Positions 3,286 through 57,843 of a stretch of 64,000 nucleotides of DNA are shown here, one piece after another; within the stretch, counting starts at the first letter, position 1; each line of letters opens with the position of its first letter. The stretch is from Lucinisca nassula (lineage: Eukaryota > Mollusca > Bivalvia > Lucinida > Lucinidae), in assembly GCA_963580285.1 (NCBI GenBank), contig OY757017.1, positions 110,455,245-110,519,244 of the forward strand, read 5' to 3'. The translations under genes were made by a program, and so were the position numbers. Under the pieces are notes generated by a model. It was not told the origin of the DNA. It saw only the letters and a program-made list of their open reading frames with translations, and searched no databases.

Positions 3286-3962
3286 ATCGTGTACAGGGCT
3301 AGGGACACATTACTCTTTGAGTACAGCCCCTGATAGTTTTTACAAAACATAATTTCAGATTTTCGTCAACTGTTTGTGTTACAAAATTGAAATTTGGAAC
3401 ATATGGGCGCCGTATTGATGTATAGTGTATACCGGGTTCAGCGTCAAGGGCCCATAACGCTTTGGAGTTACATCCCTTGATAAGTTAACAATTTAATATT
3501 TATGAAACAAGTTTCATTACATATTTCTCAGGTACTATGAAAACTGTAAAGTTTAAAATCGGTACATATTGACGGTGGCCTGTTGGTTTGTGTATACTAC
3601 AATTAGGGCCAGTGACATATAACTCCTGGAGTTACATCCCTTGATAGGTGTTGCAATTTTTCATTAACGAAAAAGTTTCGTCTCATATTTTGCAAAGTTG
3701 CAATTTGATACAAACTTTGGCAATGGGTTGATATATCTTGTATACTGGATTCAGGACCAAGGTCAAATATTTCTTGGACTTACATCCCTTGATATGTTTT
3801 AAATTTTCCCATTGATGACTCACGTTTCTCAACAACTGTTGGGGTTACAAAGTTGAAATTTGGAACAAACATGGGCAATTGGTGGATGTATCATGTGTAC
3901 CAGAATCAGGGCTTAGAGCCCAGGACTCATGGAGCTAAATCCCTTGACAGGTTTTAAGTTTC
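3286..3962. repeat. Tandem repeat, about 4 units of about 165-175 bases
   Basis: Each unit carries a form of ACATCCCTTGATA and of GGGTTACAAAGTTGAAATTTG, spaced about 170 bases. Units are diverged. The layout resembles the tandem cores of the HINE/pearl-like elements elsewhere in the window, but no terminal hairpins were identified. Confidence 0.55.
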
Positions 3963-8683: not shown

Positions 8684-11155
8684 ATCCATACAGAGTAGTC
8701 CGAGCCTGCTTACTATGTAGACAAGACTCTTGACAGCGTGCTCCCAAGGCAGGTGAACTTGTATGCCGCTTGCAATCTTTGACCTTACCCTGTGATGGTG
8801 GGCTCTTTGTAAGGCTTACCAGGTGCTGGCTGGTAGACAACCTGAGTCTTTTTGATGCTGAGTTTGAGGCCATAGCTACACACAGCCTTGCTTGACTCAC
8901 ATTGTCACAGGGAATGGATCTGAAAGCTCATCGTCATTTTGGACTCGTGCAAGCATACCACTGTGGAACTGTCTTACCATTGCTACGAACTTGCTTGGAC
9001 ATCCGAACTACACCATGATTTTTCAAGGACCCTCACGACTTACTTATCAAATGCTTTGGTAAGGTCAACAAGGGTCATGTAAAGGTCCATGTTCTGTTCC
9101 TGACACTTCTTCTGAAACTGCCTTGCTGTGAAGATCATGATAATTGTTCCTCTGTCTTTCTTAAACCCACACTGGCTTTCTGGTAGAAGCCATGACTGTT
9201 CAAGGTGTTCGTCCAGTCGGTTTAGAAGGACCCTTGCGAGGACTTTCCAAGCAATTGACAATAAAGAGATACCACGATGATTGTCACAGATCTGAGGGTT
9301 CTCTTTCCGTTTGCATAATGCAAGCATCCTTGAATTCTCCACATAATGTGAAATAACCCCGTCATCTTTGAAACTGGAGTACTCCCTGCTTTGTAGATCT
9401 CAGCGGGTATTGCATCTGGTCCTAGGGCCTTACCAGATGCCAGAAGCTTTACTGCTTTCACTGTTTCAGTAACTGTTCGGAACTTGTCAAGCAGCAAATT
9501 ACATTCAACCAGTAGAAGGTTGTTGATAGCATCATCCTTGATAGAGGAAGGCCGATTAAGAGCACTATCAAAGTGCTTAGCCCACCTTTTCAAGATAGCC
9601 CCTTTGTCAGTCAGAAGACCAGTTCCATCTGCACTGAGAAGAGGAGTGATTCCTGAGGTCTGGGGACCGTAAATTTTAGTGAATCAATAACCTTCTTCAT
9701 ATCCTTTCTGTCTGCAAAGGACTGGATTTTATCAGCCTTTTTGCTCAGCCAGGAGATTTGGACTCTCTTGCATATATCTGAATAGGCTGCCTTGTTAGAT
9801 ATGGAGTTGGTATCGCTGAAGTATACCCTGTGGATTAGGTGTTTTTCTTCAAGGAGTCCCTGGATGCCTTTGTCATTCTCATCGACCCAGTCTTGATGTT
9901 TACGAGATACTGGACCTAGGGAATCCATTGCTGAAGAGTTAACACTGTCACTGAAGACTCTCCAGTTCTCTTCTGGATCGTCTGAACTGAATTCCAATAC
10001 ATCTAGTCTGTTGGCGACATCATGAATGAAGACTTGCCTCTTGCTCACTTGTTTCGGTTTTTAGACATCCAGTCTCTTGGGCACCTTCTTTCCTTTGGTC
10101 GCCGCGCAGGCGCGTGTGCAGGTTTCATTTGCTGACAACAACCTTGTGATCTGTCAAGCAGTCCGCACCACACACAGTCTTTGTCACCCAGACATCCTGA
10201 CTGAGATTCTAGTGTTTGGAGCGAGGATGCAGCCATGATGTCTTGTTACGAGTTGGCAGACGGAAGACTTTCTTTCTTTCTACTGCTACTGTGATCGGTC
10301 ATATTTGGCCATTACTCGCAGGTGTATATTACATACAGTCCAGTTTTTGCAGGATGAAAGCCTACATAGTAATCATCTAGTTATGGTAGAGTTCTTTAAC
10401 CTCCGGGACATGATTCTCCCTGCACAGGGGGCCTCCAGTTAACGTCCCGATCCGAAGGACGGTGCACTTTATGACATTCATCCCTGCAGATGATGCCAAT
10501 GGAGCGTGTTCGGACACCCGAAATTTTATCGTCGCTGCCGGGGATCGAACCCGGGACCTCTGGCATCAGACGCAAGTGCACTAACGACTGATCTATCACG
10601 CTCCAGACTTGTTAATGTTCAGCAGTTCAAGCTCTGCAGATCAGGGCATTGCTTTTACACTTTCCGTCTTCTCCATTCCCAATCACCCCTTCCCAGGTTT
10701 GATGGTCTTGGCCCATTCTAGCATTGAAGTCCCCCAGGATGATGAGTTTGTCTCCCTGGGGTGTAGCAGACATCACAGAGTCCATATCATCATAGAACTT
10801 CTTTGATCTCATGTGGGGTGTTCATTGTGGGTGCATAGGCACTTGCAATAGATGCATGCCTCTTACCAGATAAACGTTGTCTCCGTGTCATCAGGCGGTC
10901 ATTCATGCCTTTTGGAAGTCCTGAGAGCTTGTTGGCAAGGTGTGATATGATGGCGAAGCCTACTACTGCTTCATGCCGCTCTTCTTTTGTGCATCCACTG
11001 CAGAAGAAAGTGTAGCCAGCACCAACCTCTTTTGTTAGCCCTTCCTCTACAAGGCGAGCCTCACTAAGAGCTTCAATCCCGACTTTGTAACGATTAAGTT
11101 CTCTACCAACTAGAGCCTGTTCTTCGCTGTGGTCTGTCTGGACCAGCACTGTCCA
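8684..11155 (-). pseudogene. LINE remnant: EEP endonuclease plus reverse transcriptase, decayed
   Basis: Read leftwards from 11150, the pieces follow the order of a non-LTR retrotransposon. An exonuclease-endonuclease-phosphatase domain comes first (GAGYTFFCSG, SAYAPTM, LIILGDFNAR at 10627-11149), then a linker with SRKHQDW (9611-10048), then reverse transcriptase fingers (NHRGISLLS, DLYMTLVDLTKAFD at 9040-9593). Thumb-region sequence near 8700-8890 follows directly. Frameshifts and stops occur throughout. The block with the catalytic xADD motif is missing: the sequence jumps from the VKQGCV region to SYGLKLSIKKTQ near 8887. A SINE splits the endonuclease part at 10271-10604. The domain order matches proteins often misnamed craniofacial development protein 2-like. 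Inactive. Confidence 0.85.
10271..10604 (-). mobile_element. tRNA-headed SINE, family D, full copy with target duplication
   Basis: On the minus strand it starts at the right with GGAGCGTGATAGATCAGTCG (box A region) and box B GGGTTCGATCCCC, and ends in an (AAAG)n tail at the left. The 6-base direct repeat AGACTT flanks it (10265-10270 and 10605-10610). It sits inside the LINE endonuclease region and separates residues that belong together. Confidence 0.8.
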
Positions 11156-24017: not shown

Positions 24018-24309
24018 CCGGCCTCGGCAGCTCAGTCGGATGCGCGTCTGACTGGTAATCAGGAGGACGCGGGTTCGATACCTGCCGGGGTCGGCAACAT
24101 TCTTTCGTGGAGATAGATCATGAAATCTTTTCTATGGTTATTCTCTCCCTTCCACTGATTCAAAAAGGGCAGCTGTCAGTTTCTGGCGAAAGAATGTGCA
24201 CTGCACTGTTTACGCCTGCCCCGGAAAAGTGTGGATAGGTAAACTGACCGGCTCAAAATGACCTATATAGTGGTGACTGGGCCGTTAAACTCCAATACAA
24301 ACAAACAAT
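24018..24309 (+). mobile_element. tRNA-headed SINE, family B, full copy
   Basis: The tRNA-like head carries AGCTCAGTCGGA (box A) and GGGTTCGATACC (box B). The body with TTTCTGGCGAAAGAATGTGCA follows, then the 3' end GGGCCGTTAAACTCCAATAC and an (AAAC)n tail. An exact 13-base duplication, ACATACAATCAAG, flanks it (24005-24017 and 24310-24322). This is the reference copy of the family in this window. Confidence 0.88.
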
Positions 24310-26146: not shown

Positions 26147-26690
26147 GATTGATTTGAGGTTTAAAGTTCCTGTTACCACTATTAATGTTATTTTGGAGAC
26201 GTTGCTTCTAATATTGTGAGAGTTTTACGCGACATTGAGATAAAATGACATCTCAAGCCCTGCCCACAATGGAAACCAATATGGTTTATATGCAGGTACC
26301 GTCAAACTGGCACCACTTTGGCTGGGCAAGCTCTTACCTTCTAAGCGGTTCTTCTGTTATGGTTTATTTTCGTTATGGTTTGTCTTTTGTTTGTGTGTAT
26401 CCCTTATATTGTTTTTGTTTTGGATACCCAACTGGTCATTTTGTGGGAAAGTAACTGTTCTTTTGGCTTTCCGCTATTGATGTTTCCATTAGGGTTTAGT
26501 TATTTCAGGTTTGTGTTTCTTTTCCTTTGGTGTCTCTGACTGGAGCTGTGGGTTAATTGTATCGTTTCCTGACCATTGCCTTAACCTCTATTTTACCAGT
26601 ACTCATGTGCGGTGTGTTTCAGCTCTACATGGAAACATCATGCAGCGAAATATATTTCTCCAAGCCCCGATGGGCGGGTTGGGGAGGGCC
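26147..26690 (-). mobile_element. SINE family A (minus), split by a Naiad 3' end
   Basis: The plus strand gives the inverse SINE from TTGATTGATTTGAGG to CTTCTAAGCGGTT at 26345, then resumes at ACCAGTACTCATGTG (26597) through GGAAACATCATGCAGC to CAAGCCCC. The two halves join exactly as in the intact copy at 18957-19240. The 250 bases between are Naiad 3'-end sequence. Confidence 0.8.
26346..26596 (+). mobile_element. Naiad 3'-end copy nested in a SINE
   Basis: From CTTCTGTTATGGTTTATTTT to CATTGCCTTAACCTCTATTTT, aligned with the Naiad 3' end but about as diverged as the copies at 21640 and 23660. The left junction shows shared GCGGTT: the SINE has AAGCGGTTTACC and the Naiad has AGGCGGTTCTTC. 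Confidence 0.75.
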
Positions 26691-26777
26691 GAATGTGAAG
26701 ATGTACTCGCATGCATAATTTTAATATATTCTATGGGAGTGCACATTTACATGTACGTATTCTTGACTTTAAGTGAG

Positions 26778-29700
26778 ACTTTATTTCGATGCAAATTCTA
26801 CATCTAGATTCAAAATAATCAAAAGACATGAAACTGAACTGAAATGGATTAAATTTTTACAGACCCCTTTTCCACTGGGATTTAATGACAACATTTATCA
26901 TGAGGGTAATATTTCCAGAATGCCGGACTTTGATATTTTCTCACTCCTGAAATGTCGAAAACGCAGAACTAGATCTCACGGCACCAGGAAAAATGGTAAC
27001 TTTAAACGTAAATCACGTGCGTTTAAACGAAACAATACTAGACTGAAGTGACTGTCAATTATATTATTAAATCATGGACGCCACTCTATGCTTTCATTTT
27101 TAAGTTCATTTCCCGTTTCTGTTTTACGTCTTCTGGACACCGAGGCGAATAAATTCTACGATAGTTCTCATCAGTTATATGATGCGGCTCTCTTAACTAG
27201 AGGCTATACTCAGCATACTCTCCGTCCTTACATCGATTCTGAAATTAATCATAAACGCCATTTCTTCAAAATATCCTTCATTAATAAGGGTATGGATTTT
27301 ATAGATTTGCCCAGTATCTTCCGTGAGAGATCGGTGCTTTCTTCCATTCCTGCTTATTTTCAAAATACTGAAACACCTATAATTTGCTATAAATATAACA
27401 AACCTGTTAGATCTATCATTTTTAATTTCAATAAACTTGTTTCAGATCTTGATATTGATACTAATACTCCTGATTCATGTGATTGTAAAAACTCAAAGTT
27501 TTGCTATCCTGCTGCTGGTCATGTAATTACTGGCAATTTGAAAATTATTCCTGATTCTAGGATAAGGAATATAATTTCTAAAGGACCGAAATATCGGTTT
27601 CCTTCTAAAATTGATTTCAGTAAATGTAGAGATGAAATCGCTGCTTCCTTGAATGAATTCGGTAATCGATGGTGTAAGCGAGAGTATGTTGAGCATAAAG
27701 CCCTTAAGGACTGGAAACTTAGCATTTTAAAACTAGTGAATAAACGCATTTCTTTCTATTCTCAAAATACTAACTTATTACCTCGTAAGCCCAAGACGTC
27801 TTTACGTCATCTTAAACTGGTATTCAAGAATTTCATAAGAAGTTTGTTTTGGCCCCTGCAGACAAGGCCGCTAACAACGTCGTCGATGTGTGACGGCTCC
27901 ACTATGTTAACACGCTTAAGCAGGAGCTTGGTGGTACTAAGGCCTATGAACTTCAGCCTTTAGCTGAAGAGAGAGCTATAGTAGATAAACATGTTTGTCT
28001 TTCAGCCACCAAGTTTGCTGTGTGTGTTAACGAAGGCCAAGACAAGCTTCCTACGCTATACTGGTTACCAAAACTTCATAAAAGACCTTACAAAGCACGG
28101 TTTATTGCAAATTCTAGCTCTTGCACTACCACTGAACTTTCTAAATTATTAACTTCCTGTCTTACTGCTATTAAAACGCATGTAATTAAATATTGTGATA
28201 AAGTCTTTGAAAGATCAGGAAGAAATCTGTTTTGGTCTATGAAAAATTCGAATGAGGTTTTAAATAAATTGAAATCCAGACATTTTCGTGCTTCTAGTCT
28301 GTCTACTTACGATTTTTCCACTCTTTACACTACACTTCCTCATAATCTTATAAAAGAAAAGCTTAATGATTTAATTGAATGGGCTTTTCACAGAGAAGAT
28401 TCTCTCTATCTTGCATGTAATGTCAGAAATGCATTTTTCACTTCTAAAGAGCATAAGAATTATACACTTTGGTCATGTCAGAAAGTGTGTGATGCCCTCA
28501 CCTTTCTACTTGACAATATTTATATTAGGTTCGGTACTAAGTTATTTAGACAAATTGTGGGTATTCCGATGGGTACTAATTGCGCACCTTTTGTGGCTGA
28601 TCTGTTCTTGTATTGTTATGAAAGAGACTTCATTTTGTCGCTTTCCATTGATAACCAATCTGAAATTATTGAAGCTTTTAGCTCCACTTCTAGATATTTA
28701 GATGATTTATTAAATATTGATAATACCTATTTTGATGGTTTGATCAGTCAGATTTACCCCCCAGAACTTCAGTTAAATAAAGCAAATTCTTCTGATACTG
28801 AGGCCCCATTTTTGGATTTACATCTATCTATTGTAGATGGATTTGTTTCGTGCAAAATTTATGATAAACGCGATGACTTTGATTTTGAGATTGTAAATTT
28901 TCCTTTTTTCGATAGTGATGTTCCTCGTGCGCCATCCTATGGCGTTTATATTTCGCAATTAATTCGATTTGCTAGAGTGTGTAGTCATGTAACTGACTTC
29001 AACACTCGTAATAAATTATTAACGGCTAAAGTCCTTAATCAGGGTTACCTGTACCATAAACTACGCAAAGCCTTTTCAAAATTTTATAGGCGCCATTCTG
29101 ATTTAATTTCAAAATTCAATATTGGACTTAAATCTCTTTTCCAACAAGGTCTATCGGAACCCGAATTTTATGGTGACTTAGTATATAAATTCAGAAAAAT
29201 ATATAACCGCAATGACTTCAGCACCCAATTTCGTAAAATCATTCTTCGATATAAAAAGATTGGGTACAACATGGATATTATACGATAGACTGCATGCATG
29301 GTAGTTAACCCAATCACGGTTGGCAACTTTGCTTCCCTCTTTAATTGCACGCCGGTGGGTCGGGCCTCAGATTCTATGACGGCTCCAACGTAAAGGCTTA
29401 TTTAGATTTAGAGCGATCTAATTCAAGGTAATGTTGGTTGGTGCCTTATGCTCTGTCTCTGGTCGGGCCCATCGGAGTCTAACTGTTGGTTTTCTTTTGC
29501 TCCAGCATTTCAGTGGTTTCTTGCTGTCGAGTCCTCACCGTTGTCTCACCTCCTTGGTTCTTTGATTTTTGTGTTCACGGAGATGTTGCACTGATGAGTT
29601 AGGAGGCCTTCATGCGGACTGAACAAATTATTTGTCTATATCGCGACGGAAGTAAGGGCGAGGATTGTGGCCACGTAAAATCGATTTAAGCCCCCCAGTG

Positions 29701-29968
29701 GAAATCTTCCACTGACCGTTCCAAGGCGGCTCTTCTGTGGCGATTTATTTATGTTGTTGTTTGTTACTTACTGTGTGTATCACTTTTGTCTTTTTATTTT
29801 GGATGACCATATGGCCATTTTGTGGGAAAGTAACTGTCCTTATGGCCTTCCTTTGTTTAGGTTTCCATTATGGTCTTGTCGCTTAATGTTTGTATTTCTT
29901 TCCCTTTGGTGTCTTTTATGGATGGATTGAGTTAATTGTATCAATTCCTGATCTTTGGTTTACTTCTA
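26778..29968 (+). mobile_element. Naiad (Penelope-like) retroelement N1, 5'-truncated
   Basis: A Penelope-like element with permuted order: endonuclease part first, then reverse transcriptase, then a 3' UTR of about 580 bases ending GTTTTACTTCTACTT. The 5' break at about 26778 falls within the GIY-YIG endonuclease. The remainder encodes the end of that domain, a basic linker and a complete RT. Similarity to N2 is very high, so both inserted recently. The 3' UTR has a conserved perfect 9-base stem (CAGTGGAAA/TTTCCACTG). No target duplication was seen. Confidence 0.92.
26788..29287 (+). pseudogene. N1 endonuclease tail plus reverse transcriptase, with in-frame UGA codons
   Basis: It reads from ANSTSRFKIIKRHE through a basic linker (CRKRRTRSHG) to a UGA at 27049-27051. 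The same frame then continues through LSIILLNHGRHSML into the RT. Landmarks are the CxC linker motif (Cys 27478, Asp, Cys 27484), motif A DFSTLYTTL, motif B GIPMGTNCAP and the catalytic YLDD at 28695-28706. A second UGA at 27891-27893 follows VV-x-V and is followed by RLHYVNTLKQEL. A one-base deletion near 27822 (N2 has an extra base) breaks the frame, and TAG at 29286-29288 replaces the CAG seen in N3 about 28 codons before the usual end. The UGAs are shared with N2; the deletion and TAG are private decay. Confidence 0.85.

Positions 29969-30048: not shown

Positions 30049-30098
<50 letters not shown>
30047..30098 (+). repeat. (ATT)n microsatellite
   Basis: About 17 uninterrupted ATT units, about 80 bases past the end of N1. 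The asparagine-rich minus-strand open frame over it is an artefact of the repeat. Confidence 0.95.
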
Positions 30099-31821: not shown

Positions 31822-32753
31822 GGGTTATCGGTTCCATAAACTGCGCAAAGCATTTTCAAAATTTTATAGACGCCATTCTGATTTAATTTCAAAATTTAAT
31901 ATTGGACTTAAATCTCTTCTCCAACAAGGTCTATCGGAACCCGAATTTTATGGTGACTTAGTGTATAAATTCAGAAAAGTTTTACCGCAATGACTTCAGC
32001 ACCCAATTTCGTAAAATCATTCTTCGATATAAAAAGATTGGGTACAACATGGATGTTATACGACAGACTGCATGCATAGTAGTTAACCCAATCACGGTTG
32101 GCAACTTTGCTTCCCTCTTTAATTGCACGCCGGCGGGTCAGGCCTCGGATTCTATGACAGTCCCAACGTAAGGCTTATTGAGAATTAGAGAGATCTAATT
32201 CCAAGGTAATGTTGGTTGGTGCCTGATGCTCTGTCTCTGGTCGGGCCCATCGGAGTCTAACTGTTGGTTTTCTTTTGCTCCAGCATTTCAGTGGTTTCTT
32301 GCTGTCGAGTCCTCACCGTCGCCTCACCTCTGTGGTTCTTTGATTATTTGTGTTCACGGAGATGTTGCACTGATGAGTTAGGAGGCCTTCATGCGGACTG
32401 AACAAATTATTTGTCTAAATCGTGACGGAAATAAAGGCGAGGATTGTGGCCACTTAAAATCGATTTAAGCCCCCCAGTGGAAATCTTTCCACTGACCGTT
32501 GCAAGGCGGTTCTTGTGTGGCGATTTATTTTTGTTGTTGTTTGTTACTTACTGTGTGTATCACTTGTGTCTTTTTATTTTGGATGGCCATATGGCCATTT
32601 TGTGGGAAAGTAACTGTCCTTATGGCCTTCCTTTGTTTAGGTTTCCATTATGGTCTGGTCGCTTAATGTTTGTGTTCCTTTCCCTTTGGTGTCTTTGGTG
32701 GGTGGAGTAAGTTAATTGTATCGATTCCTGATCTTTGTTTTACTTCTACTTGA
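31822..32753 (+). mobile_element. Naiad retroelement N6, 5'-truncated
   Basis: It begins at GGGTTATCGGTTCC in the C-terminal part of the RT (YHKLRKAFSKFYRRHSDLI region) and runs to the 3' end GTTTTACTTCTACTT. The coding remnant is frameshifted near 31980. It keeps CGACAG where N1 has a stop. About 930 bases. Confidence 0.85.
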
Positions 32754-39371: not shown

Positions 39372-41076
39372 AGTAGAAGTAAAACAAAGATCAGGAATTG
39401 ATACAATTAACTTACTCCACCCATAAAAGACACCAAAGGGAAAGAAATACAAACATTAAGCGACCAGACCATAATGGAAACCTAAACAAAGGAAGGCCAT
39501 AAGGACAGTTACTTTCCCACAAAATGGCCATATGGCCATCCAAAACCAAAAGACACAGGTGATACATACAGTAAGTAACAAACAACAACATAAATAAATC
39601 GCCACAGAAGAGCCGCCTTGGAACGGTCAGTGGAAGATTTCCACTGGGGGGGGGGGGGGGGGGGGGGGCTTAAATCGACCCTACGTGGCCACAATCCTCG
39701 CCCTTACCTCCGTCGCGATCCAGACAAATAATTTGTTCAGTCCGCATGAAGGCCTCCTAACTCATCAGTGCAACATCTCCGTGAACACAAAAATCAAAGA
39801 ACCACAGAGGAGAGACAACGGTGAGGACTCGACAGCAAGAAACCACCGAAACACTGGAGCAAAAGAAAACCAACAGTTAGACTCCGATGAGCCCGACCAT
39901 AGACAGAGCATCAGGCACCAACCGACATTATCTCTCTAATTTTCAATAAGCCTTTACGTTGGAGCCGTCATAGAATCTGAGGCCTGACCCACCGGCGTGC
40001 AATTAAAGAGGGAAGCAAAGTTACCAACCGTGATTGGGTTAACTACCATGCATGCAGTCTGTCGTATAATATCCATGTTGTACCCAATCTTTTTATATCG
40101 AAGAATGATTTTACGAAATTGGGTGCTGAAGTCATTGCGGTTATATATTTTTCTGAATTTATATACTAAGTCACCATAAAATTCGGGTTCCGATAGACCT
40201 TGTTGCAGAAGAGATTTAAGTCCAATATTGAATTTTGAAATTAAATCAGAATGGCTTCTATAAAATTTTGAAAAGGCTTTGCGTAGTTTATGGTACCGAT
40301 AACCCTGATTAAGGAGTTTAGCCGTTAATAATTTATTACGAGTGTTGAAGTCAGTTACATGACTACACACTCTAGCAAATCGAATTAATTGCGAAATATA
40401 AACGCCATAGGATGGCGCACGAGGAACGTCACCATCAAAAAAGGAAAATTTACAATCTCAAAATCAAAGTCATCGCGTTTTTCATAAATTTTGCACGAAA
40501 CAAATCCATCTACAATATATAGATGTAAATCCAAAAACGGGGCCTCGGTATCAGAAGAATTTGCTTTATTTAACTGAAGTTCTAGGGGGTAAATCTGACT
40601 GATCAAACCATCAAAATAGGTATTATCAATATTTAATAAATCATCTAAATATCTAGAAGTAGAGCTAAAAGCTTCAATAATTTCAGATTGGGTATCAATG
40701 GAAAGCGACAAAATGAAGTCTCTTTCATAACAATACAAGAACAGATCAGCCACAAGAGGTGCGCATTTAGTACCCATCGGAATACCCACAATTTGTCTAA
40801 ATAACATAGTACCGAATCTAATATAAATATTGTCAAGTAGAAAGGTGAGGGCATCACACACTTTCTGACATGACCAAAGTGTATAATTCTTATGCTCTTT
40901 AGAAGTGAAAAATGCATTTCTGACATTACATGCAAGATAGAGAGAATCTTCTCTGTGAAAAGCCCATTCAATTAAATCATTAAGCTTTTCTTTTATAAGA
41001 TTATGAGGAAGTGTAGTGTAAAGAGTGGAAAAATCGTAGGTAGACAGACTAGAAGCACGAAAATGTCTAGATTCCT
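39372..41076 (-). mobile_element. Naiad retroelement N3, 5'-truncated, minus strand
   Basis: It runs leftward from a break at about 41076 inside the RT (just before the STYDFSTLYTTL motif) to the 3' end at 39372. The RT remnants keep GIPMGTKCAP and YLDD (40385-40861) and an intact C-terminus that ends after SDSMTAPT at 39954 with TAA. A frame break lies near 40378-40440. The 3' UTR carries a G run of about 21 bases at 39648-39668, at the site of six C residues in other copies. It shows that the full-length protein extends about 28 residues beyond the premature stop of N1. Confidence 0.9.
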
Positions 41077-41211
41077 ATTTTTCATCATGCCTAACATGTT
41101 TATCGCCTTTATGGTCATTCAGCCTAATTTAGTAGTTTAGTATTTAAAATAGAGACTTATCCAAGAGCTTTAGCAGTCTTGTAAACATAAAATCTCAGTT
41201 ACACCTAGACG

Positions 41212-47680: not shown

Positions 47681-48175
47681 GAATAAACTAGACCCTAATG
47701 GAAACACCAGTAGCGGAAAGTCAAAAGGACAGTCACGTTGCCACAAAAAGGCCAATTAGCTATCCAAAACTACAAGTATAAGCGATACACACACTCTAAT
47801 AAACCGAGACAGAAGAACCGCATTGGCACGGTCAGTGAAAGGAATTCCACTGCGGGCGTGTGGGGGGGGGGGTGCTTAAATAGAGTTTACGCCGATGCAA
47901 ACCTCGCCCTTACTTCTGTCCACATGAAGGCCTTCTAACTCATCAGTGGAAAATCTCCGAGAACACAAAAAAAAAATACAAACAACCACAGAGAGGAAAC
48001 AACGATGAGGACTCGACAGCAAGAGATCACTGAAATGCTGGAGCAAAAAAAAACCAATAACTAGACTATGATGGGCCCGACCAGAGCCAGAGCGTCAGAC
48101 ACCAACCTACGTTACTTAAAATTAAATTCTTTCTAATTCTCAGTAAGTCTTTTCGCTGGAACAGTCATAGAATTA

Positions 48176-48545
48176 AGGTGTAACTATACCAAATTTAGTG
48201 ACACAGAGGCCTTTTTGATATTTAATCTTCATCAGTGTGTCTCAACCCCAAAGTTTGGAAACCGAAATGGATGATGGGCAACACCCGGCTGACACAGCAC
48301 ACGCCCCTCCGAGCACACACCGACCGACGTAGCTCATCAGACAGGTCAACTGGAGGCATCAGGCAAGAGACGCCTACCCTAGGACTTAAAGGCGTCTCCA
48401 ACCGAGCCAACATCAGCAAACATGGCCCGGAAGTCCCTGGCATCAGGAAGGAGATGACCAAAGTAGCGAGACTTGCAAAATTTAAAATATAACAAAAAGT
48501 GGCCACCAAATCCGCTAAGATACATGTCTCACCTGACAGTCAGTC
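48176..48545. other. Unidentified 370-base insertion in N4
   Basis: N3 reads straight through GTCATAGAATCTGAGGCCTG, whereas N4 reads GTCATAGAAT, about 370 foreign bases, then AATCTGAGGCATG. The insert is more GC-rich than its surroundings, has overlapping open frames on both strands (48235-48492 plus, 48222-48509 minus) and matches nothing else in the window. GAAT/AATCT at the junction may be a short target duplication. Confidence 0.6.
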
Positions 48546-48753
48546 GGAATCTGAGGCATGACCCACCGGCATGCAAATAAAAAAAGGAAGCAAAGTTGTC
48601 AGTCGTGATTGGGTTAAATTCAATGCATGCAGTCTGTCAAATATCATCTATGTTGTACCCAATCTTTATATATCGAAGAATGATTTTACGAAACTGGGTG
48701 CTGAAGTTATTGCAACATTATATTTTTCTGATTTTTGATACTAAGGCACCATA

Positions 48754-49045
48754 TGGCCCTGCCGATCTGGGCTTAGGGGCGGGCTTGAACAAATATAGGG
48801 GCTGCATGATGCTTCCACGCAGATCTGAAACCGACCTGTACACAAGTTCTGGTAAACCGCTTAGAGGATCTAAGTCTGTCCAGGGCAAGCGTTGATTAAA
48901 AACCCTATTGGTTTCATTGTGTGACAGGGCTTGAGATGTCAGTTCATCTCCATGTCGGGTAAAAGTGCCACAAAATTGGAAGCAACATCTCCAACATGAC
49001 ATTTACAGTATTAACGGGGACGTTAAACCTCACATCAAACAAACT
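48754..49045 (+). mobile_element. SINE family A inserted in N4
   Basis: Full-length family A from GGGCGGGCTTGAACAAATAT to CACATCAAACAAACT, flanked by CACCATA on both sides (48747-48753 and 49046-49052). The duplicated bases are Naiad coding sequence. Confidence 0.85.
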
Positions 49046-50134
49046 CACCATAAAATTCGGGCTCCAATGGATCTTGTTGCAGAAGATATTTAAGAACATT
49101 TTTGAATTTTGAAATTAGATCGAAATGACGTCTATAAAATTTTTAAAACGATTTGCGTAGTTTGTGATACCGATAACCCCGATTAAGAGGATTAGTAGTT
49201 AACAATTTATTACGAGTGCTGAAGGCAGTTAGATGACAACACACTCTGGCAAATCGAATTAATTGTGAAATATAAACGGCATAGGATGCCCCACGAGGAA
49301 CATCACCATCCAAGAAAGGAAAATTTACAATCTTAAAATCAAAATCATCGCATGTATCATAAATTTTGCAGGAAACAAATCCATCTGCAATAAAATGATG
49401 TAAATCCAAAAACGGAGCCTCGGTATCAGAAGAATTTGCTTTATTTGACTGACGTTCTGGGGGGGGGGGGTAAATTTGACTGATCAAACTCTCGAAATAG
49501 ATATTGTCAGTAATAAATCATCCAAATATCCAGAAGTTGAGCCTAAGGCTTCAATGATTTCAGATTAGTTTTCAGCAGAAGAGACATCATCAAGTCTCTT
49601 TCATAACAAAACAAGAACAGATCAGCCACAAGGGATGCGCAATTCGTACCCATCGGAATACCCCCAACTTAGTACCAAATCTTATGTAAATATTGTCAAG
49701 CAGAAAGGAGAGAGCTTCACACCTTTTCTGACATGACCATAAAGTGTAATTTTTATGCTCTTCAGAAATGAAAAAAAAAAATCATTTCTTACATTACATG
49801 CAAGATAGAGGGAGTCTTCCCGAAGACTTGTCCATTCAATTAAATCATTAAGTTTTTCTTTTATAAGATTGTGAGGAAGGGTATTGTAAAGGGTGGAAAA
49901 ATCATATGTAGACAGACTTGAAGCACGAAAACGTCTGGGTTTCAATTAATTTAAAACTTCATTAGAAATTTTGTAGATCAAAACAGATTTCTCCCTGATC
50001 TTTCAAAGACACCGTCGCAATATTCAATCACATGTTTCTTGATGTCAGTAAAACATGAAGTTAATAATTTGGAAAGCTCAGTGGTGGTACAAGAGCTTGA
50101 ATTTGCAATAAACCGTGCTTCGTATGGTTTTTGG

Positions 50135-51730: not shown

Positions 51731-54700
51731 ATGAGTATCACAAATACTTTTAAAATATCAATATCACCCCTTAGGTTACACTCTGCTTCTTCTGTACGGA
51801 TTCCCCATTCTATTAAGAACTTTAATACTATGTTGCCTTCGGTATTGGTTAGACCCTTAAATTTGTCTTCTGTAATTTCAGTCAATCTCAATGGAGCAGG
51901 CAATACCAATGTTTTTGGGAGTAGTCTTCGTATAAGACTATCTCCTCTCAAATAGCCCATCCTTCGAAAATATACTAATCCGTGGAAAAGAAGTGGAATG
52001 TATCCTAGTATTTCTAAGTGCAATGCCAAGAGGTGCAGATGTTGTTCGCATTTAAGAACCGCGTCTACCGTTACTTCATCTGTAAACGGTAGACGCTTCT
52101 CTGTAGTTAACATGTCTGATTTGACATGATAGTCTACAGATTTAATTTATCTAATTACATGACGTGCTGCAAACTGTAATATGCAGTACGTCGGTCAAAC
52201 TAACCGCGTGCTTAAAACTAGATTAAACGAGCATTATCGTAGAATGAGTAAGCCTAAGAAAACTGACACTTTCTTGTACTGTCACTTTCGACGTACAGGT
52301 CATTCTGTAAATAACATTATTATACAACCAGTGGAAAAACTTTATTACTATGCAAATTCTACATCTAGATTCAAAATCATCAAAAGACATGAGGCTGAGC
52401 TGAAATGGATAAAAAAATTTACAGACCCCTTTTCCACGGGGATTTAATGACAACATTTATCATGAGGGTAATATTTCCAGAATGCCGGACTTTGATATTT
52501 TCTCGCTCCTGGAATGTCGAAAACGCAGAACTAGATCTCACGGCACCAGGAAAAATGGTAACTTTAAACGTAAATCACGTGCGTTTAAACGAAACAATAC
52601 TAGACTGAAGTGACTGTCAATTATATTATTAAATCATGGACGCCACTCTATGCTTTCATTTTTAAGTTCATTACCCGTTTCTGTTTTACGTCTTCTGGAC
52701 ACCGAGGCGAATAAATTCTACGATAGTTCTAATCAGGTATATGATGCGGCTCTCTTAACTAGAGGCTATACTCAGCATACTCTCCGTCCTTACATTGATT
52801 CTGAAATTAATCGTAAACGCCATTTCTTCAAAATATCCTTCATTAATAAGGGTATGGATTTTATAGATTTGCCCAGTATCTTCCGTGAGAGATCGGTGCT
52901 TTCTTCCATTCCTGCTTATTTTCAAAATACTGAAACACCTATAATTTGCTATAGATATAACAAACCTGTTAGATCTATCATTTTTAATTTCAATAAACTT
53001 GTTTCAGATCTTGATATTGATATTAATATTCCCGATTCATGTGATTGTAAAAACTCAGTGTATTGCTATCCTGCTGCTGGTCATGTAATTACTGGCAAAT
53101 TGAAAATTATTCCTGATTCTAGGATAAGGAATATAATTTCTAAAGGACCGAAATATCGGTTTCCTTCTAAAATTGATTTCAGTAAATGTAGAGATGAAAT
53201 CGCTGCTTCCTTGAATGAATTCGGTAATCGATGGTGTAAGCGAGAGTATGTTGAGCATAAAGCCCTTAAGGACTGGAAACTTAGCATTTTAAAACTAGTG
53301 AATAAACGCATTTCTTTCTATTCTCAAAATACTAACTTATTACCTCCTATGCCCAAGACGTCTTTACGTCATCTTAAACTAGGTATTCAAGAATTTCATA
53401 AGAAGTTTGTTTTGGCCCCTGCAGACAAGGCCGCTAACAACGTCGTCGTTGTGTGACGGCTCCACTGTGTTAACACGCTAAAGCAGGAGCTTGGTGGTAC
53501 TAAGGCCTATGAACTTCAGCCTTTAGCTGAAGAGAGAGCTATAGTAGATAAACATGTTTGTCATTCAGCCACCAAGTTTGCTGTGTGTGTTACCGAAGGC
53601 CAAGACAAGCTTCCTTCGCTATACTGGTTACCAAAACTTCATAAACGACCTTACAAAGCACGGTTTATTGCAAATTCTAGCTCTTGCACTACCACTGAAC
53701 TTTCTAAATTATTAACTTCCTGTCTTACTGCTATTAAAACGCATGTGATTAAATATTGTGATAAAGTCTTTGAAAGATCAGGAAGAAATCTGTTTTGGTC
53801 TATAAAAAATTCGAATGAGGTTTTAAATAAATTGAAATCCAGACATTTTCGTGCTTCAAGTCTGTCTACTTACGATTTTTCCACTCTTTACACTACACTC
53901 CCTCATAATCTTATAAAAGAAAAGCTTAATGATTTAATTGAATGGACTTTTCACAGAGAAGATTCTCTCTATCTTGCATGTAATGTCAGAAATGCATTTT
54001 TCACTTCTAAAGAGCATAAGAATTATACACTTTGGTCATGTCAGAAAGTGTGTGATGCCCTCACCTTTCTACTTGACAATATTTATATTAGATTCGGTAC
54101 TAAGTTATTTAGACAAATTGTGGGTATTCCGATGAGTACGAATTGCGGACCTCTTGTGGCTGATCTGTTCTTGTATTGTTATGAAAGAGTTTTCATGTTG
54201 TCGCTTTCCATTGATAACCAATCTGAAATTATTGAAGCTTTTAGCTCCACTTCTAGATATTTAGATGATTTATTAAATATTGATAATACCTATTTCGATG
54301 GTTTGATCAGTCAGATTTACCCCCCCCCCCCCACCCCCCAAACTTCAGTTAAATAAAGCAAATTCTTCTGATACCGAGGCCCCGTTTTTTGGATTTACAT
54401 CTATCTATTGTAGATGGGTTTGTTTCGTGCAAAATTTATGATAAACGCGATAACTTTGATTTTGAGATTGTAATTTTCCATTTTTGGATGGTGATGTTCC
54501 TCGTGCGCCATCCTATGGCGTTTATATTTCGCAATTAATTCGATTTGCTAGAGTGTGTAGTCATGTAACTGACTTCAACACTCGTAATAAATTATTAACG
54601 GCTAAACTCCTTAATCAGGGTTATCGGTACCATAAACTACGCAAAGCCTTTTCAAAATTTTATAGACGCCATTCTGATTTAATTTCAAAATTCAATATTG

Positions 54701-54970
54701 GACTTAAATCTCTTCTGCAATAAGGTCTATCGGAACCCGAATTTTATTGTGACTTAGTATATAAATTCAGAAAAATATATAACCGCAATGAATTCAGCAC
54801 CCAATTTCGTAAAATCATTCTTCGATATAAAAAGATTGGGTACAACATGGATGTTATACGGCAGACTACATGCATGGTAGTTAACCCAATCACGGTTCGC
54901 AACTTTGCTTCCCTCTTTAATTGCACGCCGGTGGGTCAGGCCTCAGATTCTATGACGGCTCCAACGTAAA
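51731..54970 (+). pseudogene. N2 GIY-YIG endonuclease-reverse transcriptase with in-frame UGA codons
   Basis: The frame opens at ATG 51731 (MSITNTFKISISPLRLHSAS). After TAG at 51953 the same frame goes on with a cysteine-rich segment CNAKRCRCC, UGA at 52127 (followed by TAG), LIYLIT, UGA at 52160, RAANCNMQYVGQT, LKTRLNEH and FLYCHFRRTGH: a GIY-YIG nuclease with its zinc ligands. A one-base indel near 52396 shifts the frame. The linker ends at UGA 52611, after which the RT runs to UGA 53454 and on to RLHCVNTLKQEL without a break. CxC is at 53040-53048, motif B is altered (GIPMSTNCGP), YLDD is at 54258-54269. The frame breaks at the C-run (about 54320), and TAA at 54721 replaces CAA. Confidence 0.87.
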
Positions 54971-55352
54971 GGCTTATTGAGAATTAGAGAGATCTAATTC
55001 TTGGTAATGTTGGTTGGTGCCCGATGCTCTGTCTCTGGCCGGGCCCATCGGAGTCTAACTGTTGGTTTTCTTTTGCTCCAGCATTTCAGTGGTTTCTTGC
55101 TGTCGAGTGCTCACCGTTGTCTCACCTCTGTGGTTCTTTGATTTTTGTGTTCACGGAGATGTTAAACTGATAAGTGAGGAGGCCATCATGCGGACTGAAC
55201 AAATTATTTGTCTAAATCGCGACGGAAGTAAGGGCGAGGATTGTGGCCAGGTAAATTCGATTTAAGCCCCCCAGTGGAAATCTTTCCACTGACCGTTCCA
55301 AGGCGGTTCTTCTGTGGCGGTTTATTTATGTTGTTGTTTGTTACTTACTGTG

Positions 55353-57669: not shown

Positions 57670-57843
57670 TTATGTAGGTAACAAATATAACGTAGGAAGC
57701 TGGTCTTGGCCTTCTTTAACACATACAGCAAACTTGGTGGCTAAATGACAAATGTGGTCATCAATTACAGCCCTCTCTACAGCCAAAGGCTGCAGTTCAT
57801 AGGCCTTAGTACCACCAAGATCTTTCTGAAGAGTGTTAACATT
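57670..57843 (-). pseudogene. Naiad RT fragment N5
   Basis: The minus-strand reading contains VNTLQKDLGGTKAYELQPLA, then ERAVIDDHICHLATKFAVCV and GQDQLPTLY. It covers only the 55 or so residues between the UGA site and the KLHKRP block. Both ends are broken, so it does not show whether this copy had UGA. Confidence 0.85.

Follow-up and report, generated by a model that had tools for sequence, protein, structure and literature searches.

Selenocysteine-coding Naiads were reportedly described in clams and spiders by Craig, Yushenova, Rodriguez and Arkhipova in 2021. The family considered here, two copies of which (N1 and N2) lie in a window of 64,000 nucleotides from the bivalve Lucinisca nassula (assembly GCA_963580285.1, contig OY757017.1, positions 110,455,245 to 110,519,244, forward strand), resembles those elements, as they are said to be built, in the order of N-terminal endonuclease and reverse transcriptase (RT), in a CxC motif in the linker, in several in-frame UGA codons, in its very high copy number and in its invertebrate host. 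N1 and N2 belong to an abundant Naiad-type Penelope-like retroelement, a class with an N-terminal endonuclease (EN+). From the sequence comparisons below it is very likely that four UGAs in the 1,074-residue protein of the source copies are read as selenocysteine (Sec), directed by a single candidate selenocysteine insertion sequence (SECIS) that straddles the stop codon. Of the Sec residues, two would lie in the cysteine (Cys) cluster fronting a GIY-YIG-like endonuclease, one in the linker and one in the N-terminal part of the RT. These four sites and the overlap of the SECIS with the stop are the features in which the family may depart from the clam and spider elements. A literature search, in which the positions published in 2021 were not compared, gave no apparent description of the four positions or of a stop-spanning SECIS; Sec-coding Naiads as such are already known, and the four-site set and the stop-spanning SECIS may be new.

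As to the place of the SECIS, PMC8310308 describes cellular SECIS elements as belonging to the 3' untranslated region (3'UTR), and gives as an exception the glutathione peroxidase of fowlpox virus (Mix et al. 2007, via PMC8310308), with a SECIS in the coding region. The viral element is alike in that its SECIS is not confined to the 3'UTR, but it lies within the coding sequence, whereas the candidate SECIS of the Naiad family straddles the stop codon. For invertebrates, PMC3473315 gives the SECIS consensus AUGA_AA and reports that selenoproteomes were retained in the mollusc and the annelid studied.

UGA sites in the family, its homologues and the window

An open copy of the family, for example L004, is one continuous frame of 1,074 codons when counted from the first Met in the conserved part, and UGA occupies residues 133, 144, 294 and 575 (hereafter U1 to U4). 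The assembly searched comprises 2.93 Gb in 696 contigs. When N1 was used as a DNA query, 40 of the 5,340 candidates were scored, and these were 98-100% identical to it; a pattern of 35 bases around the U4 UGA, with the codon left open and at most three mismatches, was found at 10,008 places, against none for the reversed control. Among 100 of these places that were listed, all on contig C1 and all with exact flanks, the codon was TGA in 99 and TGG in one. Codons at all four sites were then tallied over 51 distinct copies, namely L002-L050 together with N1 and N2 (L001, which is N1, was dropped); L001-L030 are the best matches to N1, and the 20 copies L031-L050 come from the 100 listed places. 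U4 is TGA in 49 copies and TGG in two, U3 is TGA in all 39 copies that cover it (12 without coverage), U2 in all 29, and U1 in 28 of 29, the other having TAA (22 copies without coverage at each of the last two sites). Compared in pairs, 22 long copies are 98.0-99.98% identical, and the UGAs are kept in both of two subfamilies, which have a long and a short SECIS loop.

Stops were also counted in the top-scored matches to two UGA-free proteins, a sample biased toward open copies. With P0014 (residues 6-840; Cys at U3 and U4), all 54 matches scored, of 102,203 candidates, had exactly two TGA and no TAA or TAG, a pattern that is more than chance. With P0025 (Cys at U1, U2 and U4; Ser at U3), 46 matches were scored of 82,018 candidates; the three top-ranked seem by identity and stops to be other lineages, the best one alone having been read as DNA, and among the remaining 43 family matches 38 had exactly four TGA and five had three, none with TAA or TAG. 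The codons of four of these five were determined. A Cys codon, TGT, stands at U1 in L057 and L058 and at U2 in L059, and the fourth copy, which overlaps L025, has TGG at U4; each keeps UGA at its other three sites. The family thus shows polymorphism between Cys and probable Sec, and its single Cys codons fall exactly where relatives have Cys as well. Among the copies examined, none had a sense codon at every one of the four sites. L057 and L058 lie on C6 and L059 on C16, and the fifth three-TGA copy is a tandem neighbour of L059.

Homologous proteins, of which 62 were found, have Cys at U1 in all 28 that cover the column and at U2 in all 30; at U4 there is Cys in 51 of 61 and tryptophan (Trp) in the other ten, which agrees with the statement in the initial annotation that this site is normally a Cys after a run of valines. 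Among relatives of 65-79% identity, 15 have Cys and seven Trp at U4, and more distant relatives with Trp are P0021, P0024 and P0037 (47-50%). Trp at U4 is probably a UGA that gene calling translated under a code in which TGA means Trp. Column-by-column inspection covered nine of the ten Trp proteins (P0008 is outside the alignment). Of the seven Trp in P0001 and P0003, five are at columns where other homologues have Trp too, and two are at columns where every other type has Cys, namely U4 and the first Cys of the CxC; the homologous part of P0004 shows the same pattern. Along with Trp at U4, five proteins (P0001, P0003, P0004, P0008 and P0026) have Trp at the first CxC Cys, which in them is probably an additional UGA/Sec site unused in the window's family. 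The alignments of the 15 close relatives that have Cys at U4 (P0002, P0005-P0007, P0009, P0010, P0012, P0013, P0015-P0020 and P0023) all fall short of the CxC, as though a stop in frame, perhaps a UGA, preceded their annotated starts; these relatives may still be partly Sec-coding.

In a FastTree tree with U4 masked and midpoint rooting, built from the window's family and the 53 proteins covering residues 445-820 (nine were dropped), the family falls among Trp lineages, which also enclose a Cys clade (supports 0.89-0.93), Trp-type and Cys-type relatives being interleaved; the number of switches between Cys and Sec is uncertain because of the node supports, which drop to 0.06 at one deeper node.

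The same genome contains a Cys-coding Naiad, L051 (region C5:124072600-124076000), whose match to P0025 at C5:124073217-124075799 is 43% identical and has no stop over its 2,583 bases. It shares with the window's family the domain order, the CxC motif (both Cys) and the third of the clustered N-terminal Cys, and has Cys (TGC) at U4; it differs from that family in having Leu (CTC) at U3, no UGA from the endonuclease motif to the end of the open reading frame (ORF), and no SECIS match; the two proteins are 38% identical. Five further Naiad-like loci occur in bacterial and archaeal assemblies, of which L052-L054 reach the Sec columns and L055 and L056 do not. L052, L053 and L054, on contigs of bacterial and archaeal metagenome-assembled genomes (MAGs), encode long Naiad-like proteins with TGY at U1, U2 and U4, and these contigs are most likely animal contamination of the MAG bins. 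No relative of the element was found in IMG/VR.

With respect to the protein, a GIY-YIG-like stretch (IYLIT..MQYVGQT) N-terminal to the RT aligns with P0025, P0027, P0039 and P0042; P0039 carries precomputed PF01541 and PF00078, so some homologues have GIY-YIG and RT domains. A Pfam scan of the family protein itself returned no family, the endonuclease assignment resting on homology, and a PDB sequence search with it returned only insulin, at E 0.19 or worse. The AlphaFold model of P0025, a homologue and not the element itself, has a mean predicted local distance difference test score of 80.9, and its 13 best PDB matches are telomerase reverse transcriptases, with low template modelling scores of 0.25-0.31 by query. 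The linker CxC motif reads DSCDCKNS and occupies residues 435-442 (329-336 in a 968-residue numbering). Tandem copies also occur, same-strand neighbours being spaced 4,150-4,161 bp, with the tail of one copy running into the next. Naiads are marked by a GIY-YIG endonuclease ahead of a telomerase-like RT, a CxC motif between the two, tandem copies with pseudo-LTRs, a preference for insertion at microsatellites, an insertion-in-fingers domain (IFD) and no known hammerhead ribozyme; the domain order, the CxC motif and the tandem pairs of this family agree with that type.

In the window, N1 (26776-29968, + strand) is 98.6% identical to L004 in nucleotide sequence and is covered at 26776-29390 by tblastn with an open family copy. 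It is 5'-truncated, starting at about 26776, so that the U1/U2 region is missing, and has U3 at 27049-27051 (residue 294 of 1074), U4 at 27891-27893 (residue 575, after VVVV/VVDV) and TAG at 29286; its ORFs at 27052-27963 and 27894-29288 are offset by a one-base deletion shortly 5' of U4. The ORF of N2 extends from the Met codon to the family stop (51731-54969, + strand) and is decayed by TAG 51953, TAG 52130, TAA 54721 and frameshifts. It has U1 at 52127-52129 (residue 133) and U2 at 52160-52162 (residue 144), where homologues have the first and second Cys of the cluster before the endonuclease motif, and U3 at 52611-52613 and U4 at 53454-53456, homologous to the two sites of N1. Because each has frameshifts and private TAA or TAG codons, N1 and N2 are both dead copies.

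The initial annotation, which had proposed a Sec-coding retroelement from these two copies, placed UGA at 27049 and 27891 in N1 and at 52611 and 53454 in N2, with private stops at 29286, 51953 and 54721, and all of these are present. Its account of the frame around the UGAs holds for N2, which is open for 280 codons between them (52614-53456), well above the 12-42 claimed, but not for N1, whose UGAs stand in different frames. Two sites were counted where there are four, the pair that it missed (U1 and U2 of N2) being just upstream of the endonuclease motif. Its reading as a whole gains support, since UGA, far from being restricted to a small lineage of dead copies, is present in nearly all examined copies of an abundant family.

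The hairpin at the stop codon and proposed Sec decoding by the host

The Rfam model SECIS_1 (RF00031) matches L004 at 3498-3589 with 24.1 bits and E 0.039 (4,227 families, 821 bases), with the core AUGA-C-GGC-U-CCAAC-GU-AAA ... GUUGG-U-GCC-UGAU and, in the long-loop form, an extra apical hairpin (GAAUUAGA/UCUAAUUC). A match at the ORF end, with AUGA, the apical A run and UGAU, is present in all 12 copies searched (24.1-25.8 bits), and in their 52.8 kb Rfam matched nothing else at E<=10; in the stem of L031 a G-U pair replaces G-C. The short-loop form is without about 12 nt of the loop, and its arms can still form. Neither the 3' part of L051 nor L052-L054, all Cys lineages, gave a SECIS match. 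Unusually, the family stop UAA lies inside the hairpin, where its A residues align with the conserved run of apical A. A conserved C-terminal tail, SDSM(T/M)xxT, also present in P0002 and P0005 (Cys at U4), is encoded by the 5' strand, and the 3' strand is in the first 52-64 nt of the 3'UTR.

The homologous stretches of the two dead copies are at 29366-29457 in N1 (+ strand), with the ORF stop TAA 29391-29393 inside, and at 54942-55033 in N2 (+ strand), spanning the stop TAA 54967-54969. The interval from 54970 proposed in the initial annotation for a SECIS search in N2 thus began inside the hairpin, the 5' arm of which is in the last codons. The annotation had also tied its reading to a SECIS in intact copies; open-frame copies do have a SECIS-like element, but one that scores below the curated Rfam cut-off.

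It could therefore be argued that the UGAs are Sec codons and the match a chance hairpin, with the real signal elsewhere in the 3'UTR. This is very unlikely, as the match is the sole one at E<=10 in the sequence of the 12 copies and stands at one place in every one of them, with AUGA, the apical A run and UGAU. Moreover, an Rfam scan of the whole 64-kb window gave a single SECIS match at E<=10, at the corresponding place of a third copy, N3 (ORF end, 39902-39981, - strand, 26.5 bits), and the short-loop subfamily has lost loop sequence only, leaving arms that can still form. A scan with a home-made SECIS pattern was uninformative: it was too strict for stem mismatches and gave two hits in the window, neither of them the Naiad SECIS, against one to six in eight random sequences.

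With the hairpin taken as the SECIS of a Sec-coding element, this single structure at the ORF end would have the last codons and the UAA as its 5' strand and the early 3'UTR as its 3' strand, SBP2, eEFSec and tRNA-Sec would decode the UGAs, and the protein would work with Sec where relatives use Cys. The host genome has a tRNA-Sec, with two strong matches to the model at 80 and 77.4 bits; seven further matches at 47.2-49.5 bits, above the cut-off of 47, are probably other tRNAs. That U3 is at a poorly conserved position suggests that extra UGAs are tolerated once a SECIS is present.

A more tentative proposal, which we consider possible rather than probable, is that the SECIS is built across the element's own stop, with the codons of the SDSM(T/M)xxT tail and the UAA supplying the 5' strand, the quartet and the apical A run, and with the loop and the 3' strand coming from the UTR's first 52-64 nt. 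Termination would then be in competition with Sec decoding for one and the same RNA, and readthrough of the UGAs would depend on ribosome traffic. Since relatives that have Cys at U4 conserve the tail too, little more than a change in the UTR could turn a Naiad into a selenoprotein gene, which would explain the switching between Cys and Sec among relatives and even among sister copies.

If the UGAs are read as Sec, a family with about 10,000 U4-bearing places would make up a very large share of the host's selenoprotein-coding sequence, and propagation of the element would depend on selenium and on the host Sec machinery. The Cys-coding relative in the same genome, the relatives alternating between Cys and probable UGA, and the sister copies with Cys at a single site would make the exchange of Cys and Sec testable in a fast-evolving protein, and the hairpin at the stop codon would offer a natural way to test at which positions a SECIS works.

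Selection on the reading frame and the weighing of alternatives

Variants were called relative to L004 over the 51 copies, and per-site ratios were derived from simple site counts without transition bias. Those common to at least four copies comprise 10 non-synonymous and 24 synonymous changes (per-site ratio 0.12) and no stops, distributed as 0 and 6 before U1, 3 and 3 from U1 to U3, and 4 and 14 after U4 (ratio 0.08). Variants in two or three copies number 30 non-synonymous and 33 synonymous, and private variants 238 and 155, plus 17 TAA or TAG and seven new TGA, all singletons. Shared and private variants differ with a Fisher p of 5e-4 over the whole ORF and of 0.006 after U4. Purifying selection is thus shown on the ORF as a whole and downstream of the last UGA.

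This pattern of shared variants argues against a dead family copied in trans, that is, against the UGAs being inactivating mutations that the copies share because they go back to a single dead source, amplified by an intact relative that codes for Cys. Such an origin would fit the broken state of both N1 and N2, the distinct Cys-coding L051 in the same genome, with no stop in its matched part, and the sister copies with TGT at U1 or U2. However, the three TGT copies keep their other three UGAs and no all-sense copy is among those examined, the private TAA and TAG codons are all singletons, and L051, with 38% protein identity, would probably be too distant to drive the family in trans. This explanation is already disfavoured, and we regard it as highly improbable.

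Ordinary readthrough of UGA by a near-cognate amino acid (Trp, Arg or Cys), with no SECIS, is scarcely credible: stop-codon readthrough is common in animals and U4 is TGG in two of 51 copies, but four consecutive readthroughs would leave almost no full-length protein, all four shared stops are UGA and none UAG or UAA, three of the columns are Cys in relatives, and a SECIS match is present at the 3' end.

Several observations nevertheless weigh against reading the UGAs as Sec codons. U3 (27049 in N1, 52611 in N2) is a variable column and not a generally conserved Cys, as Cys is found there only in P0014, one of 33 aligned homologues, and, among the DNA loci, in L052. The relatives with Trp at U4 are counted as UGA from their protein sequence, and P0026, which has Trp at many other columns too, proves nothing by itself. 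Since the P0025 query has Cys at U1 and U2, it lifts the rank of the three-TGA copies, whose frequency is not readable from the ranking. The SECIS scores, 24.1-26.5 bits, are under the Rfam gathering score of 35 for SECIS_1, and the stretches of N1 and N2, with UUAU (on the 3' side of the core) and CGAU, respectively, in place of UGAU, gave no Rfam match at E<=10. The tRNA-Sec model matches all 14 prokaryote control genomes as well, above the cut-off in five of them, so the case for a host tRNA-Sec rests on its two high scores. Finally, the shared variants from U3 to U4, three non-synonymous and one synonymous, are too few to judge selection there, and the ratio of private variants is itself below 1 (0.43), partly since copies of high similarity were chosen.

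Other Naiad copies and minor features of the window

The third copy, N3 (39374-41080, - strand), consists of the 3' part only, beginning after U4; it is 94.9% identical to N1 and is also matched by tblastn. Its SECIS, at the boundary of ORF and 3'UTR (39902-39981, - strand; RF00031 26.5 bits, gathering score 35), is the best preserved in the window and of the short-loop form; both loop forms thus occur here, N1 and N2 having the long loop. A fourth copy, of a 3' end (31822-32748, + strand), has a SECIS-like match at 32144-32235 (RF00031 18.8 bits, E 9.5, with 7 kb searched).

Directly upstream of N1 and in its orientation there is a diverged (76%) Naiad-like 3' tail at 26333-26572, an arrangement that resembles the partial tandems of Penelope-like elements. 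Older Naiad fragments at 49039-50132 and 47914-48753 (both - strand) are 81-85% identical to N1, and a fragment at 57842 has no readable sequence reaching U4. No hammerhead ribozyme family matched at E<=10 in the window or in the 12 copies, which agrees with a Naiad. A (TTA)n run near 30,050 follows the 3' end of N1 after about 75 bases, a single case, and a tRNA-like match at 24021-24093 (+ strand, 32.6 bits against a cut-off of 29) is possibly a tRNA-derived repeat.

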